Shown piece by piece: positions 1-21,610 of a stretch of 24,128 nucleotides of DNA. The notes under the pieces were generated by a model, which saw only the letters and a list, made by a program, of their open reading frames with translations, searched no databases and had not been told where the DNA came from. The DNA comes from a virus. The DNA lies in IMG/VR virus record IMGVR_UViG_3300009068_000187, positions 1 to 24,128 of that record. One strand, written 5' to 3'. The position numbers and the translations under genes are program-made. The stretch's first letter is position 1; the number at the start of each line of letters is the position of its first letter.

Positions 1-629
1 CCAAATTTCTCACGTGCTTCACCAATGATCATCTTGCAGTTGGCCACCATGTAGTCTTTTATCCATTGCTGTATTTGGTAATCACTAAGCAGATTGAATT
101 CAGGTTTTAAATTGTAACTCCACAACAACACAGTTTCGCCTGACCCTTTGGGGTCACGGATCAATTGCAGTTTCTTTGTCACAGGATTGTATGTGTAGTT
201 CATGTAGGCACCAAACATGCGTCCAGCCAGCTCAATGTACTGACTGTAGAAGTCGTATGTGGCCAGGCCACCAGCCACGTTGAAATTCATAAGGTACACG
301 TTGAGCGAGGCCTGTGCAAACGGATCAAAGTTTGATGCAAACGGTCCTGAACTATCACCAAATGTTCTGCGAAAGATTTGACGTACTGAGATTACTTCTT
401 GAGGAAGTTCGTAGATGTTGACATCTGCTACCAACTGCATGAAGCTGTAACTTTCTTCATAAGCATTGTTGGCTCGCTGGCGGTAAGTGCCAATGGTCTT
501 TTGATACGCCGCTTCGTAGTGTGCAGGGTCTAGTTCTAGGTCAATGATGTCACCACCCAGTTGAAGCTTGACATACTCTATTAAGTTTTGCTTCAGTGTG
601 GGCAGTGATTGTTGTTGCTGTTCTGGCAT
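1..629 (-). CDS. gp13: gp13-like neck (head-completion) protein, C-terminus outside window
   Basis: This frame is open from an ATG at 629 to the left edge, giving 209 residues with no stop, so the C-terminal end is missing. The start follows GGAG with a 6-nt spacer. Visible features are a Gln-rich N-terminus (MPEQQQQS), a helical stretch around LIEYVKLQLGG, then YEESYSF, an IYELPQEVISVRQIFRR strand (~residues 74-90), a FDPFAQASLN segment, TYDFYSQYIELAGRMFGAY, and a terminal AREKFG. The order (N-terminal helices, a LPxxVxxVxQIF strand, a Y/Q-rich helix, a C-terminal GxxxxKF helix) is that of T4-like gp13, which with gp14 closes the filled head and forms the tail-docking neck. The assignment rests on remembered family pattern plus the nearby gp14-like gene. 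Marine phage relatives are often labelled only 'virion structural protein'. It lies on the opposite strand from gp14/gp15, and its leader carries a hairpin and a late-promoter-like box. Confidence 0.62.
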   Translation of the reverse strand, partial: MPEQQQQSLPTLKQNLIEYVKLQLGGDIIDLELDPAHYEAAYQKTIGTYRQRANNAYEESYSFMQLVADVNIYELPQEVISVRQIFRRTFGDSSGPFASNFDPFAQASLNVYLMNFNVAGGLATYDFYSQYIELAGRMFGAYMNYTYNPVTKKLQLIRDPKGSGETVLLWSYNLKPEFNLLSDYQIQQWIKDYMVANCKMIIGEAREKF

Positions 630-631
630 GT

Positions 632-659
632 GGGACTCCAAGTCCCTGTATTTACCAGG
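632..659 (-). promoter_or_regulatory. Late-promoter-like box with SD-sequestering hairpin ahead of the gp13-like gene
   Basis: On the minus strand GGTAAATA (656-649) is followed at once by a perfect 6-bp hairpin, GGGACT-TGG-AGTCCC (646-632). The hairpin's loop and 3' arm contain the only Shine-Dalgarno sequence (GGAG, 639-636) of the gene starting at 629. A second short inverted repeat, CCTG/CAGG (659-656 and 648-645), frames the box. T4 late promoters (consensus TATAAATA) start RNA about six nt past the octamer, which would be near 643, inside the 5' arm. RNA reading through from the 377-aa gene would carry the whole hairpin. The hairpin is directly visible. The promoter role is inferred, and the box matches the consensus at only six of eight positions. 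Confidence 0.5.
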
Positions 660-1785
660 CTTTGAGTATGATCAAGTTCTCAGTTCCACGTCCGTTGAAC
701 GGGGTTTCTGTAGTAGTCAAGTCCTTGTAGATCTTACGTGCTGCCGGCTTGCCTGCGGCTTGCACAGCCTTCACAACATCTGCTGGCTTGCGCACAGTTT
801 TCTGCATGGTCTCAATGGTGCTGAAACCAATTATGCTGTTGCTTTTGACAGTGAACGCTTGTGTGTGACTGTCAGCCACAAGGTGGATCAACTTGCGCTT
901 CTTGGTGTCATACAACCAAGCTTCGGCCTTGTCCACAAGACTTGCGGCTGGCAAGCCTTTGAGTTTGAGTTCAACAAAGTCCATTAACACTTTGAACTTG
1001 GCGGCACGTTTTTCAGGTGGCACTGACTTGACTTTGCGTGGTTTGCGTTCCACTTTCTTGATCTGCACATACGCACCGCAATCATTTATGACCGCTTCGC
1101 AAAACTTCACAAGATTGCGCATTTGAATCTTGCTAAAGTTACTGTAGCCTTCCACCAACTGTGCATCTTTGCCTTCAATTGCTGTTTCAAACTCTGCAAG
1201 TTTGTGTTTCCACAGGTTAGCAATGTCCGAAATCATTTGAGGTGCTACATTTAGGCCACGGATAACTGTGATAGGCTTGTAGTCGGCACTCATTTTGGCA
1301 CCGGCCGTCACAAACTCATCAAACATGCCATCCAATTCGCCAGCACATTCACTTACCTTTTCACGCAACCGGTCTTGTATGTTGGGCTTGGCTACTGCTA
1401 CAACTTCCTCTTGCACCACTTCGGGCTCACGTGCAGTTAATATTTCTTGAATGTAACCTTCTAATCGTACTTGTTCTGTGTCTGTGAGTTCTAACCCTAC
1501 CATGCTCATGCGGCACAGCCATGCAGTGGTCAATCGAACTGCTGAATCGGGCACACCTTTCAATGCACGAACATCTGCTTTGCGGCCATTGTGTTCCAAA
1601 TAAGCCACCAGCATTTCGCGGGCATCTTTTTTGCCATAAAAGTAATTGTACCAGGAAAAGGCAGCACTGAGTTGACTGGTGCGATCGTCTGTGGGTTGCA
1701 CACGCCATGCGGGTTCCAGCCCTGTGTATTTGGTATCTGGGCTGCGAGGATTCAGTGGCTTGACAGCGATTCGTGTGGCGTTCAT
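652..1785 (-). CDS. Hypothetical 377-aa phage protein
   Basis: I do not recognise a functional family. The start at 1785 is well supported: AAGGAG lies 5 nt upstream and a sigma70-type promoter at 1809-1837. The protein is soluble-looking, with no signal peptide or membrane segment. The N-terminal third (residues ~40-115) is helical and aromatic, with a WYNYFYGKKDAR segment. A charged, Glu/Val-rich linker follows at ~120-135 (EVVQEEVVAVAK), then a helical middle and a basic patch around KKVERKPRKVK (~242-252) that could bind nucleic acid. The C-terminal part carries WLYDTKKRKLIHLVADS and ends LIILKAW. Its TAA stop overlaps the late-like box of the gp13-like gene, 22 nt upstream of that gene's start. 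Its own host-type promoter suggests early or middle expression. Confidence 0.82.
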   Translation of the reverse strand: MNATRIAVKPLNPRSPDTKYTGLEPAWRVQPTDDRTSQLSAAFSWYNYFYGKKDAREMLVAYLEHNGRKADVRALKGVPDSAVRLTTAWLCRMSMVGLELTDTEQVRLEGYIQEILTAREPEVVQEEVVAVAKPNIQDRLREKVSECAGELDGMFDEFVTAGAKMSADYKPITVIRGLNVAPQMISDIANLWKHKLAEFETAIEGKDAQLVEGYSNFSKIQMRNLVKFCEAVINDCGAYVQIKKVERKPRKVKSVPPEKRAAKFKVLMDFVELKLKGLPAASLVDKAEAWLYDTKKRKLIHLVADSHTQAFTVKSNSIIGFSTIETMQKTVRKPADVVKAVQAAGKPAARKIYKDLTTTETPFNGRGTENLIILKAW

Positions 1786-1808: not shown

Positions 1809-1837
1809 ATTATAGCAGAGAAAGAATTTTTGGTCAA
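1809..1837 (-). promoter_or_regulatory. Sigma70-type promoter for the 377-aa gene
   Basis: On the minus strand TTGACC (1837-1832) and TATAAT (1814-1809) are separated by exactly 17 nt, with a TGC extended -10 element. It lies just downstream of a hairpin terminator and upstream of the AAGGAG ribosome site of the gene starting at 1785. Both hexamers are consensus apart from the last -35 base, so host RNA polymerase should use it early in infection. The GGTTGACCAA and TGCTATAAT segments match those of the promoter at 2161-2189. Confidence 0.8.
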
Positions 1838-2160: not shown

Positions 2161-2189
2161 ATTATAGCATTTTGGTAATTATTGGTCAA
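2161..2189 (-). promoter_or_regulatory. Sigma70-type promoter for the 89-aa gene
   Basis: Minus-strand TTGACC (2189-2184), a 17-nt spacer and TATAAT (2166-2161), with a TGC extended -10. Transcription would start near 2154 and give a ~20-nt leader carrying AAAGGAG. It points away from the gp14-like gene, whose late-like box (2216-2223) lies 26 nt away on the opposite strand. The hexamers and spacing are read directly from the sequence. Confidence 0.82.
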
Positions 2190-13379: not shown

Positions 13380-16300
13380 TTATCCTAATGCTATTGCCAG
13401 TGCAGCCGCGTCATCTATGGTTGCCACTCTAGCGTTGTTGATATTTATCGTGCTAGTAGCGTTGATATTGTTGGCGTTGACATTGGCGGTTGTTGTGATG
13501 TTTTGTACAAGATTAATTGCGCTGATGACATTACCACTCAAACTCAATCCCACAGTGTTCAAATTGCCACCTGTGATGTTGCCTGTACTGCTTATCAGCC
13601 CACCAGTGAGTATGTTTCCACCAGTGATGTTAGCGGTCACCGCCAAACTGCTTAAAGTACCCACTGAGGTAATATTGTTTTGTGAGGCTGTAGTAAGAGT
13701 ACCAACAATACTGGTACCACTCAAATTGCCACCAATAATATTTCCAGTTGCAGAGACCAAACCTACTGTGTTGATGTTGCCGCCACTTACATTACCTGTA
13801 GAAATAACTTGTGCGCCAGTGGTTAAGTTTCCACCTGTGATGTTGCCTGTGGCGGTAATCAATCCTGCCGTTGAAACGTTTCCACCAACTACGTTGGCTG
13901 TGGCACTGACTGTTTGCCCTTGAATCAATGCGGCTGTTATAATATTGCCACCAGTTATATTACCTGTGGCTGTGATCAAACCTACTGTGGTAATATTGCC
14001 ACCTATGACATTGCCAGTGATGCTGGCTACCCCACCAGCATTGACATTACCACCAGTGACGTTGCCAGTGGCACTGATCAATCCTGCTGTGTTGACATTT
14101 GCGCCAATTATATTACCTGCTGAACTCAACAATGTCGAAGCCAGTATGTTGCCACCACCAATATTACCAATTGAAGTTGTAATGTTGCCAGTTACCAGCG
14201 CGGCACCCGCCACGGTTATTGACCCGCCATTTGTAGTTGTTATTGCACCACCCACTGTCAGTGCATTGGCAGCAAAGTCATATATCAAACCAGAATCGCC
14301 GCCAACTACTCCACTTTTATCAAACAGCACCTGACTGTTAGAAGTACTCAATGAAAAACTGCCAACTAAATTACCAAAAATGTATTGTCCAAACACGTTG
14401 CCTGCGGCAGATACATTACCTGCCGCAGAAATCAGTGCGCCTGACACAATGTTACCTGTTGCAGTTACTAGCCCTGCTGTGGTAATATTACCACCAATGA
14501 CATTACCTGTCACCGTGGCCTGACCGGCAGTAACTAAATTGCCTCCTGTTACATTGGCTGTAGCACTTACTTGTCCTGCTGTGGTGACATTGCCACCAAT
14601 GACATTACCTGTCACTGTGGCCAAACCTGCTGTGGTGACATTGCCACCAGTTATGTTGCCAGTGGCGCTTACTTGTCCTGCTGTGGTGATGTTGCCTCCA
14701 GCGACGTTTGCTGTAGCAACAACAGATACTGTACTGACTGCCGCAATAGAAATAATATTGCCGCCAGTGATATTTCCAGTTGAAGTAATTAGTCCTGGAG
14801 TTATGACATTGCCGCCGGTGATATTACCAGTGACATTAAGTGGTGATACAACATTGCCACTCAAACTTAATCCAGCAGAATTTAAATTTCCACCGGTGAT
14901 ATTACCAGTTACTGAAACTGTGGTACCTGTGTGTGTGGTAGCATTGACATTAGCACCACCTAAAATATTACCACCAGTGATATTACCAGTTGTACTGATT
15001 AATCCTGCTGTAATCAAATTACCACCAGTAATATTACCTGTGGCTGTGATCAATCCTGCTGTTGAAACATTGCCACCAACTACGTTAGCCACTGCACTTA
15101 CTTGTGCTAACGAGTTTAAATTACCAGTTATGATGTTGCCAGTTACGCTCAAACTTGGCAACACACCAATTGCTGTGGCCACTACGCCAGTTAGTGCTGA
15201 ACCATTGCCAATGAAATAACTGCCTGTTATGTTGCCCGAAGTGCTTACTGTGGCACCTTCTAACTGTCCAACTACAAAACTTCCATAACTGTTGACTGTG
15301 ACTTTTTCGTTGGCAATACTGACATCGGTCGCAGCAAACATCTTTTTAGATGTATCATTGAAACCAACAAACGCTTGTTTTTCTGTTACATTAAAGTAAA
15401 ATAAATCAGTACCACGGTCTTTGCCATCATCTAATGTCAATGGTGTATTGTTGGCATTACGGCCTAATCCAATAATTGGATCCTCAACATTAAAACTTGT
15501 TACGTTGTTGTAAGTAATGTCACCATTGACAATTAAGTTGCCACCAACTAGAACATTGCCAGTTGTGGTCATTGAGGCTGCTGACATTACTGCCACGCTG
15601 ATAATATTACCACCAGTGATGTTGCCTGTAGCATTGAGTGGTGATACAACATTACCACTCAAACTCAATCCTGACGCATTCAAGTTGCCACCAGTTACGT
15701 TGCCGCTGGCGCTGACGCTGCTGCCAGTTATTGTTCCGCCACTTACACTTGTTGCTGTAACCCCGCCACTTACTGAAATACTTGGGCCAAGTATGTTGCC
15801 ACCTGCTGATATTACTCCAACAGCATTCAGGTTGCCACCAGTGACATTGCCTGTGGCATTAAGGGGCGATACAACATTACCGCTTAGGCTCAACCCTGCA
15901 CCATTCAACGTATTGGCACTGGTAATGTTGCCTAATGCGCTTATAGTGCCACCAGTAATGCCTGGACCAACTCTGATATCCTGGGCAATGACATTGCCTG
16001 AAGTAGAAACATTTCCACTTGTGTTGATGTTGCCACCAATCACATTGCCTGTGGCCGAAACTGTGTTGGTGGACAACAGCACACCTGAAACTGCTATGTT
16101 ACCACCGGTGATGTTGCCAGTGCCTGACACTGTGCCAGTGGCAAACGCCACATTACCATTGAATGTTGCGCCATTTACATTGCCACCAGTGCTGATCACA
16201 CCCGATCCTGCCAATATGTTACCGCCAGTGATGTTTCCAGTGGCACTTACAATACCAACTGTGCGAATATTGCCGCCTGAGACGTTGGCGGTTGCGCTGA

Positions 16301-18542
16301 TATTAGCGCCAGTCAGTATGTTGCCAGTTGCACTTATGATATTACCAACAACAAGATTGCCCACACCCGGGCCATTACTGACAGTTAAATTACCAACTTG
16401 TGCATCACCATTGCCAAGTAATTTGAATATGCCAAACAGAATGTTGCCGCCAGTGATATTTCCAGTTGCACTAACAAGTCCCACTGTGCGTAAATTACCA
16501 CCTGTGACATTGCCTATCAAACTGACATCACCACCAGCACTGACTGATCCTGCAGTGATGATATTACTGCCAGTGATATTACCAGTTGTGTTGACTGTGG
16601 TGCCAACTGACAGTGCTCCAGCAGTGACTAAATTGCCGCCGGTGATGTTGCCAGTGGCAGTGATCAAGCCTGTGGTGGCCAAATTGCCGCCATTGACATT
16701 GGCCAAACTGTTTACATTGCCAGTTGCAATTACCGCACCAGTAGTTATAACATTACCAGTCAACACATTGCCAGCAGCTGATACATCGCCTGACGCCAGC
16801 AATCCAATGGTCTGTATATTGCCGTTGACTGTGAGCAGGTTAGGACCTGCTGTGTCAAATCTCAATCCGGCACTGGCTCCGGCATTGCCAGCGTTGTTGT
16901 AAATGATCTGTGTGTTTGATCCTGGTACTGTCAAATTGCCTACAATGTTGCCAGCAAATGCGCCCACAAAATACCCGTCAGTTGTGATGTTGCCTGCGGA
17001 ACTCACAATACCCAATGTTCTTATATTGCCACCGGTGATGTTGCCTGCTGAACTCAGCGAACTGGCACCAAATGCTCCAGACAATGCCAAATTACCACCA
17101 GCAATATTGCCTGTGGTAATGATATTTGATGTGTTGGTAGCACTGGCCAAATATGTTGCCACGTTGGCATTGCTGTAAGTAGCAGGTAGTCCTGTGAGTT
17201 GACTACCATTGCCTAATATATAACCGCCAATCACATTGCCTGTGGACGATATGTTTCCAACTTGTGCATTACCAGTCAATGTGAATACATTGCTTGTGCT
17301 GTCAAATCTAAAGGCAGCACTGGCTCCAGCATTGCCAAAGTTGTTGTAAAGAATCTGTGTGTTGACCCCAGGCACAACAAAATTACCAGTTACATTTCCA
17401 ACAAAATTACCAACAAAGAAACTACTGGTAACAATATTGCCTGCAGCACTGATTTGACTGTTGGCTTTGATGTTGCCAATGCTTTGCATGTCAGTGGCAC
17501 TGATTACCAATGCATTGGCAGTGGCGCCTACGCTGACTTGAACATTGCCATTAGCCACAGGAATGGCCATCTTACTAAGCCCATTCACAATGGCAGAGCC
17601 GCTGAGTTGACTGGTTCCTTGTATGGTGAAAGCTCCACCAACTGGGTTAGTCAAAACAATAGAATCAGCGTTGGCTGTGAATGTTGAATCACCAAGAGTG
17701 ATTGTGTTGCCACTCAAGTAAATATTTTTAAATCTTTGTGTAGCAGTGCCTAAAGTGTATATGTTGTTGGCACCAGGAACAATATTGCCTGTGAATGCAG
17801 CGGCAGTAGGACCAAACACCACAGTGTTTGATACACCGTTTACACTGACAGTGATATTGGCACCGGCGTTTTGAATGTTTACATTGCTATTGCCATTGTT
17901 GATGTTAGACACAGAAGTAATAATACCCGACAACAATGCACCGTTGCCTAGAATATAATTGCCAGTGATATTGCCTGTGGCAGTGACTGACCCAACAGTT
18001 CTAATATTGCCACCAGTGATATTACTGGCTGCAGAAACTTGTCCCACAGTTGAAAGATTGCCAACTGCTAAATTACTTTGAATATTTGAAGAAGTTGCGC
18101 CAAATACAGCAACATTGCTGGTTCCGGCGACACTGACTGTTACATTACCGTTCGCACTGACAATTTTTACATTAGATGTGCCTGAATTTATACTGGTACC
18201 AGCAGTGGTGATACCTGTGATGCCGGATCCGTTGCCCACAAAATATGCGGCATAAACTGTGTCAATACGCTGAGTAGATGCACCAATATCATACACAGCA
18301 TCAATGCTGGGCACAATTGAACTATTGGCTTGAATATTACCAATGCCATTGGCTTTGAGCACCAAGTTGTTGTTGGTACCAGTAACGGTGATGGTATTAC
18401 CGGAGATAACGACATTGCTGCCAACAGGGCCAGCAGTATAAATCTCAGTAAAATTTTCGTTTACCGCGGTGAATGCATCGCGTAACGGTTCACCAGTGCC
18501 GTCATTTGCGGCAGCACCCGTGTCAATAATCTGTTGTGCCAT
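13380..18542 (-). CDS. Giant repeat-shaft tail fibre (1720 aa)
   Basis: The N-terminus (MAQQIIDTGAAANDGTGEPL then LRDAFTAVNENFTEIY) is the widespread 'NDGTGxPLRxAFxxxNENFxElY' fibre-attachment motif. Residues ~75-115 carry DIGASTQRIDTVYAAYFVGNGSGITGI. NTQ modules (PGxNTQIxYNNxGNAGASAxxRFD) lie near ~390 and ~540, with a degenerate third near ~1395. A globular module at ~1005-1090 contains EDPIIGLGRNANNTPLTLDD, QAFVGFNDTSKKMF and ATDVSIANEKVTVNSYG. Between and after these, roughly residues 600-1680 are 17-residue ATGNITGGN-type units. The C-terminus (ARVATIDDAAALAIALG) has no obvious cap domain, unlike the 1075- and 502-aa fibres. A 7-bp hairpin in the leader overlaps the Shine-Dalgarno (GAGGA, a rather long 12 nt from the ATG). 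Cysteines appear absent or very rare. Confidence 0.85.
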   Translation of the reverse strand: MAQQIIDTGAAANDGTGEPLRDAFTAVNENFTEIYTAGPVGSNVVISGNTITVTGTNNNLVLKANGIGNIQANSSIVPSIDAVYDIGASTQRIDTVYAAYFVGNGSGITGITTAGTSINSGTSNVKIVSANGNVTVSVAGTSNVAVFGATSSNIQSNLAVGNLSTVGQVSAASNITGGNIRTVGSVTATGNITGNYILGNGALLSGIITSVSNINNGNSNVNIQNAGANITVSVNGVSNTVVFGPTAAAFTGNIVPGANNIYTLGTATQRFKNIYLSGNTITLGDSTFTANADSIVLTNPVGGAFTIQGTSQLSGSAIVNGLSKMAIPVANGNVQVSVGATANALVISATDMQSIGNIKANSQISAAGNIVTSSFFVGNFVGNVTGNFVVPGVNTQILYNNFGNAGASAAFRFDSTSNVFTLTGNAQVGNISSTGNVIGGYILGNGSQLTGLPATYSNANVATYLASATNTSNIITTGNIAGGNLALSGAFGASSLSSAGNITGGNIRTLGIVSSAGNITTDGYFVGAFAGNIVGNLTVPGSNTQIIYNNAGNAGASAGLRFDTAGPNLLTVNGNIQTIGLLASGDVSAAGNVLTGNVITTGAVIATGNVNSLANVNGGNLATTGLITATGNITGGNLVTAGALSVGTTVNTTGNITGSNIITAGSVSAGGDVSLIGNVTGGNLRTVGLVSATGNITGGNILFGIFKLLGNGDAQVGNLTVSNGPGVGNLVVGNIISATGNILTGANISATANVSGGNIRTVGIVSATGNITGGNILAGSGVISTGGNVNGATFNGNVAFATGTVSGTGNITGGNIAVSGVLLSTNTVSATGNVIGGNINTSGNVSTSGNVIAQDIRVGPGITGGTISALGNITSANTLNGAGLSLSGNVVSPLNATGNVTGGNLNAVGVISAGGNILGPSISVSGGVTATSVSGGTITGSSVSASGNVTGGNLNASGLSLSGNVVSPLNATGNITGGNIISVAVMSAASMTTTGNVLVGGNLIVNGDITYNNVTSFNVEDPIIGLGRNANNTPLTLDDGKDRGTDLFYFNVTEKQAFVGFNDTSKKMFAATDVSIANEKVTVNSYGSFVVGQLEGATVSTSGNITGSYFIGNGSALTGVVATAIGVLPSLSVTGNIITGNLNSLAQVSAVANVVGGNVSTAGLITATGNITGGNLITAGLISTTGNITGGNILGGANVNATTHTGTTVSVTGNITGGNLNSAGLSLSGNVVSPLNVTGNITGGNVITPGLITSTGNITGGNIISIAAVSTVSVVATANVAGGNITTAGQVSATGNITGGNVTTAGLATVTGNVIGGNVTTAGQVSATANVTGGNLVTAGQATVTGNVIGGNITTAGLVTATGNIVSGALISAAGNVSAAGNVFGQYIFGNLVGSFSLSTSNSQVLFDKSGVVGGDSGLIYDFAANALTVGGAITTTNGGSITVAGAALVTGNITTSIGNIGGGNILASTLLSSAGNIIGANVNTAGLISATGNVTGGNVNAGGVASITGNVIGGNITTVGLITATGNITGGNIITAALIQGQTVSATANVVGGNVSTAGLITATGNITGGNLTTGAQVISTGNVSGGNINTVGLVSATGNIIGGNLSGTSIVGTLTTASQNNITSVGTLSSLAVTANITGGNILTGGLISSTGNITGGNLNTVGLSLSGNVISAINLVQNITTTANVNANNINATSTININNARVATIDDAAALAIALG
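13540..16890 (-). repeat. Main 51-bp (17-residue) repeat field, 1720-aa fibre
   Basis: Dozens of 17-residue units of type TAGLVSATGNITGGNIT. The period is exact in places: the block beginning CCTGCTGT (or CCGGCAGT) recurs at 14473, 14524, 14575, 14626 and 14677, always 51 nt apart. Modules SGLSLSGNVVSPLNATGN recur as longer repeats at several places (around 13540, 14860, 15660 and 15890). Boundaries are approximate; scattered units continue toward 18050. Confidence 0.8.
14473..14727 (-). repeat. Five exact-length 51-bp tandem units with 102-bp super-repeat
   Basis: Five contiguous 51-bp units with no indels. At the protein level they alternate between two versions, AGQVSATxNxTGGN and AG(L/Q)ATVTGNVIGGN, giving a 102-bp two-unit period. 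Units starting at 14473 and 14575 are more alike than adjacent ones. This is the most regular stretch in the window and the likeliest site of unequal recombination. Confidence 0.8.
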
Positions 18543-18553
18543 AGATCTACAAT

Positions 18554-18580
18554 GTCCTCTGATGTATTTACCAAAAGGAC
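18554..18580 (-). promoter_or_regulatory. Hairpin enclosing a late-promoter-like box, 1720-aa fibre leader
   Basis: On the minus strand GTCCTTT (18580-18574) pairs with AGAGGAC (18560-18554), including one G-T pair, around a 13-nt loop that holds TGGTAAATACA. The 3' arm contains the Shine-Dalgarno GAGGA. The box (18572-18565) would start RNA near 18559, after the 5' arm, leaving the ribosome site free. Read-through RNA from the 502-aa gene would contain the whole hairpin. The same 11-mer TGGTAAATACA stands before the gp13-like gene. Confidence 0.48.
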
Positions 18581-18592
18581 TTGTTTGCTATT

Positions 18593-20742: not shown

Positions 20743-21501
20743 TTATGCGTCGTAACGGTTGATTTGTGACAGAGTAATATTGGTCTGCGCAGTGCCTGAT
20801 TTGATAGCAGTTTCACCTTGATCAAAAAAGTTGGCCAAGTAGCGAATACGTTGCACCACTGAGGCAGCATCATAGGTATTGCCGCCGGTCCAGTCCAATG
20901 CATACTTGTTGGTGAGTTTGCTCACACGAGTTGTTGCACTGTCGCCAATGTCCATGGTAATGGTCATGGTGCCAGCAGTCAATGACGCATCAGCCAAGTT
21001 GGCCAGTTGGCAAATTCCTACCAATTGTGCTGTACCAGTGCCAGATCCTGTGCCAGTAGCATAGAATACATCACCAATTGCAACGCCACTAGTTGGGCCG
21101 CCAATTGCTGCCCAGTTGGTAGTGCCAACTGTGAGAATACGATATGCCAGTCCTGCTGTGATAGAAGTCGATGCCACAGAAGTCAATGCTGCCACTTTGT
21201 ATTCATAAGCACCTTTTTGTGTGATGATAAAGCCATCATCTTCTGATCCACCAGTGATGTACACACGAATTTTCACGGTGGGGTAGTCAGCACCTGTCAG
21301 GCTCATTGCTTGTCCGGGCACAGTGTTTGAACCACCAACCACGCCAAAGTATTGAGCGTTGGTATATGTGGCAGGCTTAACTGGTGCAGTCAATTGACCA
21401 AAGATTGGATATGCTGAGTCTAGCACAACTGGTTGACCAACTCCGGTGGCATTGTCACCAGAGCCAAGAGAGTATTGTTGAATTTTTAGAGGACGTCCCA
21501 T
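20743..21501 (-). CDS. MGRPL-type virion structural protein (252 aa)
   Basis: The start MGRPLKIQQYSLG and the later pairs (VKIRVYITGGSEDDGFIITQKGAYEYKVA, ~75-103; CQLANLADASLTAGTMTITM, ~164-183; KLTNKYALDWTGGNTYD, ~194-210) match a family of structural proteins in T4-like cyanophages that begin MGRPLN. Between the two halves, residues ~108-160 hold an inserted 'ITAGLAYRILTVGTTNWAAIG...FYATGTGSGTGTAQL' module seen in many phage surface proteins. AAGGAG lies 8 nt before the ATG; a CATAAATA box is 88 nt upstream and a good terminator follows. It is encoded between the capsid and fibre blocks. The exact virion position is unknown. Confidence 0.78.
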   Translation of the reverse strand: MGRPLKIQQYSLGSGDNATGVGQPVVLDSAYPIFGQLTAPVKPATYTNAQYFGVVGGSNTVPGQAMSLTGADYPTVKIRVYITGGSEDDGFIITQKGAYEYKVAALTSVASTSITAGLAYRILTVGTTNWAAIGGPTSGVAIGDVFYATGTGSGTGTAQLVGICQLANLADASLTAGTMTITMDIGDSATTRVSKLTNKYALDWTGGNTYDAASVVQRIRYLANFFDQGETAIKSGTAQTNITLSQINRYDA

Positions 21502-21581
21502 TTTTGTTTCTCCTTAAAGAAGTCCGATGCGAGTTCTAGTCGCTACGCGGAGGGTTAAACCGCATAAAACGCCGTATTGCG

Positions 21582-21610
21582 TTGACTTTTATTTATGGAC
21601 CTGTTAAAAT
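21582..21610 (+). promoter_or_regulatory. Sigma70-type promoter for the TPR-glycosyltransferase gene
   Basis: TTGACT (21582-21587), 17-nt spacer, TAAAAT (21605-21610), with a TGT extended -10. It would start RNA near 21617 and give a ~28-nt leader for the ATG at 21645. A minus-strand CATAAATA box (21590-21597) lies inside its spacer. Confidence 0.65.
21590..21597 (-). promoter_or_regulatory. Late-promoter-like box CATAAATA before the MGRPL gene
   Basis: Minus-strand CATAAATA, seven of eight matches to the T4 late octamer and identical to the box at 20119-20126. The leader to the ATG at 21501 would be ~80 nt and contains a possible 6-bp hairpin (ATGCGG ... CCGCGT). The box lies within the spacer of the divergent plus-strand promoter. 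Confidence 0.45.

Follow-up and report, generated by a model that had tools for sequence, protein, structure and literature searches.

The leader of the gp13-like neck gene in a 24-kb phage fragment from IMG/VR is likely to be an RNA lock of the T4 gene e type, which straddles its late promoter and would be closed in read-through RNA and open in late RNA. Locks of this type very probably act on late genes of giant phages. The fragment, all 24,128 nucleotides of which are referred to here as the window, encodes T4-type virion proteins, and the nearest isolate match of its gp13-like gene is in the Agrobacterium giant phage Atu_ph07 (45% identity).

Organization of the gp13 leader

The gene, its leader and the upstream gene are arranged as follows.

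3–629, minus strand: gp13-like neck gene, head-tail adaptor Ad2 (phrog_211), which runs off the window
623–658, minus strand: predicted outer helix of CUGGUA (658–653) with UGCCAG (628–623), found in the MFE and centroid folds; buries part of the AUG too
627–629, minus strand: gp13 start codon ATG
632–637, minus strand: hairpin 3' arm AGTCCC (sequence, covariation)
636–639, minus strand: Shine-Dalgarno (SD) GGAG in the loop and 3' arm, the only SD of the gene (sequence)
638–640, minus strand: hairpin loop TGG
641–646, minus strand: hairpin 5' arm GGGACT, at −4 to +3 relative to the putative late start (sequence, covariation)
643, minus strand: putative late transcription start (T4 box-to-start spacing, 5'-end scan), with the release threshold of the lock at 645/644
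649–656, minus strand: late promoter box GGTAAATA, which includes the TAA stop (654–652) of the 377-aa gene
652–1785, minus strand: 377-aa gene (phrog_11903, function unknown), source of the putative read-through RNA
1809–1837, minus strand: predicted sigma70-like extended −10 promoter of the 377-aa gene, TTGACC-17-TGCTATAAT

A preliminary description had placed the only SD in the loop and 3' arm of a GGGACT-TGG-AGTCCC hairpin and a box 2 nt before the 5' arm. The hairpin occupies 646–632 of the minus strand, the box occupies 656–649 and is followed by CA, and all sequence statements of that description are right. The SD is invariant in alignments A1 and A4 of gp13 leaders. The outer helix is possible only where the 377-aa gene, which ends in CTGG, abuts gp13. 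GGTAAATA occurs twice in the window (0.46 copies expected); the other copy (18572–18565) precedes a second late-type gene.

Host-type transcription of the 377-aa gene had also been proposed to run into gp13 without meeting a terminator. The predicted promoter at 1837–1809 (TTGACC-17-TATAAT with TG) agrees with this, the relatives checked carry similar promoters with 10–11 of 12 consensus matches, and a scan of the minus strand from the promoter to gp13 finds no terminator. Two near-identical extended −10 promoters of this kind (TTGACC-17-TATAAT, 11/12 matches; 1809–1837 and 2161–2189, minus strand) precede the 377-aa and 89-aa genes.

Rfam covariance models give no match at the gp13 leader. 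Their one match in the window is the freshwater-2 cis-regulatory RNA (21499–21584, minus strand), which directly precedes a 252-aa gene at 21501 and agrees with a phage of freshwater origin. On the plus strand, the segment 2216–2228 has the T4-type box TATAAATA 4 nt upstream of an in-frame ATG (2228) of the 481-aa gene. A T4-type start would hit this codon, and the gene could possibly have a leaderless late mRNA or use another start codon.

Predicted closing and release of the lock

RNA that starts at the sigma70-like promoter of the 377-aa gene and continues into gp13 would fold the GGGACU-UGG-AGUCCC hairpin, which would hide the SD, and the outer helix would bury part of the AUG as well, so that gp13 would be translated poorly from it. 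Late RNA polymerase would start at GGTAAATA and make RNA with a 5' end at or near 643, which would lack most of the 5' arm and leave the SD free. The box of T4 late promoters precedes the start by roughly one helical turn (PMC2988020); by T4 spacing the window box falls at −13 to −6, which places the late start at 643.

The lock was measured as the predicted cost of opening the region from the SD to the AUG. This metric replaced opening of the SD alone, which gave too low a value for the lock on gp13 (1.8 for the relative G003). The cost is 9.1 kcal/mol in the read-through RNA and 3.0 kcal/mol in RNA from the T4-type +1 at 643. When the 5' end is moved along the leader, the predicted cost is 9–11 kcal/mol at or upstream of 646 (9.7 at 646), 6.0 at 645, 3.4 at 644 and 3.0 at 643. 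The sigma70-like promoter, the scan that found no terminator and the opening costs together suggest that read-through RNA would be locked and late RNA free. We infer the exact 5' end, the early synthesis of the read-through RNA and the size of the translational effect. Since the 5' arm in the window clade overlaps −4 to +3, release hinges on the exact +1, for which the T4 spacing is assumed.

Five of six long relatives (G001, G002, G004, GAP32, RaK2) have a gp55-like late sigma factor; a T4-type sliding clamp was looked for and not detected. Each of eight jumbo genomes has 3–16 instances of the TAAATA-SD-ATG pattern, and the reversed control has none.

Conservation and covariation among relatives

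Taken singly, the window hairpin is within chance. Four of the 65 GGAG tetramers on both strands of the window overlap a perfect stem of at least 6 pairs, the fold of the 81-nt leader is not significantly stable compared with shuffles (z −0.98), and when the upstream sequence is shuffled, 16 of 60 leaders reach the score of the window leader. A chance palindrome would fit these unremarkable single-sequence statistics. It is the relatives that carry the claim: about 90 leaders of the clade and 16 of RaK2-like phages show covariation and convergent hairpins, which contradict a chance origin and make it scarcely credible.

About 90 distinct gp13 leaders of IMG/VR relatives were collected by sequence searches, and 85 of them were scored. 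TAAATA is kept in every clade leader read, behind at least five kinds of upstream gene, and nearly all leaders have the SD in the loop or 3' arm. The SD-hiding fold is kept in 79 of the 85, whether through compensatory changes or through a hairpin of another kind: opening these distinct leaders is predicted to cost at least 2 kcal/mol more in read-through RNA than in late RNA. The median difference is 6.6. For other TAAATA genes in five jumbo phages, the median difference is 1.0–2.8 (Mann-Whitney p 4e-19, with kinship ignored). Relatives that keep the box and lose the stem, which the preliminary description regarded as evidence against a lock, are a small minority: six of the 85 fall below 2 kcal/mol, and five more have no recognisable SD. 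The box is kept without a strong lock in L167, L215, L274, L111, L196 and L156, and a clear SD is absent from L159/L165 and L294/L304.

Most relatives have stems at the same position made of other letters, such as GGAAC-CGGA-GTTCC, GAGACT-TGG-AGTCTC, GGGGAC-GGA-GTCCCC and AGGAC-CAGGA-GTCCT next to GGGACT-TGG-AGTCCC of the window. Loops were padded with N before counting because MAFFT misplaced these short stems. Across 32 distinct strings, 90.6% of cells in the arms are paired. The compensatory changes that the preliminary description proposed looking for are there: both sides have changed in 14 cells, compared to 4.0 in shuffled data (0/500), and the covariation score is 0.333 versus 0.206. 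Control structures slid by 1–3 columns score 0.22 or less, with at most 58% paired, and when whole 3' arms are dealt among the sequences 105.2 ± 2.7 cells pair, compared with the 125 observed. On the tree of gp13 coding sequences, the stem switches between GC and AT types at least seven times, to which leader recombination may contribute.

The inverted repeat adjoins a promoter, and an operator bound by I-TevI is known to lie over the late promoter of that gene (PMC2988022), so the repeat could be imagined as a DNA operator or promoter feature instead of an RNA structure. Among relatives, however, the sequence and length of the arms, the loop and the position relative to the box vary freely while pairing with the SD is kept, which makes the DNA reading very improbable.

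In some relatives (e.g. L171, L182, L176, L161) inserted genes occupy a cargo slot between the 377-aa gene and gp13. One insert encodes a radical-SAM protein (PF04055) and the others are unknown. In several of these relatives the 377-aa gene ends in TGGTAAGTA, with the box lost, and the TAA of the insert makes a TAAATA box.

Replacement hairpins

Eight relatives (L113, L107, L125, L124, L263, L295, L095, L110) have a new hairpin with equal effect in place of the window stem. That of L113 is GGGATTCCTTGCT-AAATATC-AGCAAGGAATCCC, L107 has one of the same type with compensated letters, and that of L125 is TCTCCTGCCA-ATAAATAC-TGGCAGGAGA. In all eight, the promoter box is either preceded by the 5' arm or part of it, and RNA from that promoter therefore cannot hold the 5' arm, whatever its exact start.

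The position of the 5' arm also bears on translational coupling, in which ribosomes finishing the 377-aa gene at 654–652 would melt the 5' arm and gp13 would be translated from polycistronic RNA with no early silencing. A ribosome that terminates at 652 would get as far as the 5' arm and might melt it. In most leaders the box and the stop codon of the upstream gene overlap (stop end at −21/−22), and in the upstream-arm variants the stop is at −38 to −49 with the 5' arm beginning about 5 nt past it. Such tight packing behind the stop also fits a lock or a terminator. Coupling does not predict a 5' arm in or upstream of the late promoter, and the stop-to-start distance of 22 nt, reaching 49 nt, is long for it; we consider coupling unlikely. 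The proposal of the preliminary description, a lock like those of T4 e, soc and 49 that is freed by late initiation near 643, is supported by the universal box, by a stem that covaries or is replaced, and by the sharp predicted release.

Leaders of RaK2-like phages

All 16 RaK2-like leaders read (GAP32, CBB, BF, Munch, 121Q, K64-1, Hallingskeid, XaC1, RaK2 and metagenomic kin) place the 5' arm inside the box or upstream of it. Their stems are strong, e.g. ACCCC|TAAATA|...AGGGGT and GCACCTC|TAAATA|...GAGGTGC, and the opening cost is predicted to be 12–18 kcal/mol lower in late RNA (ddG). Phosso and PA5oct have intermediate energies (4.1 and 7.6) without a clear SD stem, and the lock is slight or absent in the more distant phages Vibrio 2.275 and Atu_ph07.

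A T run follows the stem in many RaK2-like phages (GGGGTATTTTTT-ATG, GAGGATTTTTTTT-ATG). The gp13 hairpins that end in a T run (L309–L320, L326, L085) are terminator-like, with the late promoter inside and the SD in the 3' arm, and many RaK2-like stems may also terminate transcription. This T run is what would favour a hairpin that is mainly a terminator, halting upstream RNA before gp13 and disarmed by starts inside the hairpin. As a general explanation this is rather improbable: no T run follows 632 on the minus strand of the window, where the scan finds no terminator, nor is there one in the clade (AGTCCCACATG); the stems of Munch, RaK2, K64-1 and Hallingskeid lack five Ts; and almost every leader has its SD within the loop or 3' arm.

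Other late genes of these phages have long hairpins across TAAATA and the SD (GAP32 235913 and 117516; RaK2 139479, 211210 and 25237). The hairpins of GAP32 235913 and RaK2 139479 look alike, and the GAP32 tail sheath gene is among the late genes with TAAATA-spanning hairpins.

A probable second lock in the window

The other GGTAAATA copy belongs to a second SD-hiding hairpin.

13380–18542, minus strand: 1720-aa virion/fibre-like gene that follows the putative second lock; it matches neither PHROG nor Pfam families
18549–18584, minus strand: second lock hairpin, with the 5' arm at 18584–18574 (plus 18572–18570) and the 3' arm at 18563–18549
18565–18572, minus strand: second GGTAAATA box, in the loop or top of the hairpin

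The SD AGAGGA (18560–18555) is within the 3' arm, and the main 5' arm lies upstream of the box. This hairpin is longer than that of the gp13 leader and its covariation is stronger. The arms change together in 44 distinct leaders of relatives (e.g. TTCCTGAGTTATGG/TCATAAACTCAGGAA in L488 and TAATCCGCATCTTTTGG/CCAGAGGATCCGGATTA in L494), both sides have changed in 25–27 cells versus 10–11 in shuffled data (0/500), and the median predicted difference in SD opening is 7.4 kcal/mol. RNAalifold recovers the inner 7 pairs only, because the bulges move; counting on the named structure shows the covariation.

The 502-aa gene upstream carries its own TAAATA box (20124), and the second lock would therefore act on late read-through too. 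Strictly early silencing, as originally proposed, is perhaps too narrow for the gene starting at 18542, for which translation from its own promoter only fits better than an early lock.

Occurrence across genomes

When the 197 TAAATA genes of five long jumbo genomes are compared with shuffled upstream sequence, 15 have p values of 0.02 or less, where 3.9 are expected. As a positive control, the scoring method puts gene e first in T4, where I-TevI, I-TevII and gene 49 also score high and soc is not recovered. These figures point to a handful of gated genes per genome, as in T4, among which gp13 is the constant member. A genome-wide rule that most TAAATA genes are locked was rejected; a minority are. 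Complementarity between the SD and its own upstream sequence, compared with swapped ones, reaches significance in RaK2 (p 0.002) and in T4 (p 0.01); it is borderline in GAP32 (0.06) and not significant in three freshwater contigs. Across the five jumbo genomes the lock does not correlate with the presence of a same-strand upstream neighbour.

A wider role is possible, and we put it forward tentatively: in giant T4-related phages, promoter-straddling hairpins would be a general insulator of a set of structural genes, translated from their own late promoters only, and the RaK2-like hairpin would double as a terminator bypassed by late initiation.

Relation to known systems and implications

In T4 gene e, a helix in the long early RNA hides the SD and AUG and lowers lysozyme 100-fold (PMC3014915). 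The leaders described here resemble those of T4 e, soc, 49 and I-TevI in that the late promoter is in or next to the 5' arm and late RNA is free (PMC3014915, PMC2988022), with GGTAAATA as the late box where T4 has TATAAATA. RBS-sequestering hairpins with a late promoter that skips their 5' part also precede I-TevII, I-TevIII, segB and Aeh1 mobE (PMC2988022). Those homing-endonuclease leaders protect introns and mobile genes, whereas the present ones would gate structural genes. Unlike in T4 gene e, the genes that would be gated encode a neck protein and a fibre-like virion protein of giant phages, and the lock seems to be conserved through hairpin turnover.

According to the available portions of one source (PMC5259590), CBB and GAP32 have ATAAATA late promoters before structural genes, the same motif and setting as here, and CBB has a gp55-like sigma factor; those portions do not tie the motif to SD-covering hairpins. 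No earlier report of an SD-hiding lock as a conserved feature of giant or jumbo phages was found in the open-access literature. The mechanism is thus known, and what appears to be new, judging from sequence comparison, is the membership of gp13 and of the 1720-aa gene and the terminator-like variant in RaK2-like phages.

Early-lock leaders of T4 have so far been treated as a few special cases. The probable lock on a virion neck gene spans a clade of abundant freshwater giant phages as well as the RaK2-like phages, in whose cultured members it is directly testable. It also provides a sequence-only signature by which gated genes and late starts could be located in phages that have not been cultured. 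That the lock is kept by repeated invention of new hairpins points to selection against translation of the neck protein from read-through RNA.
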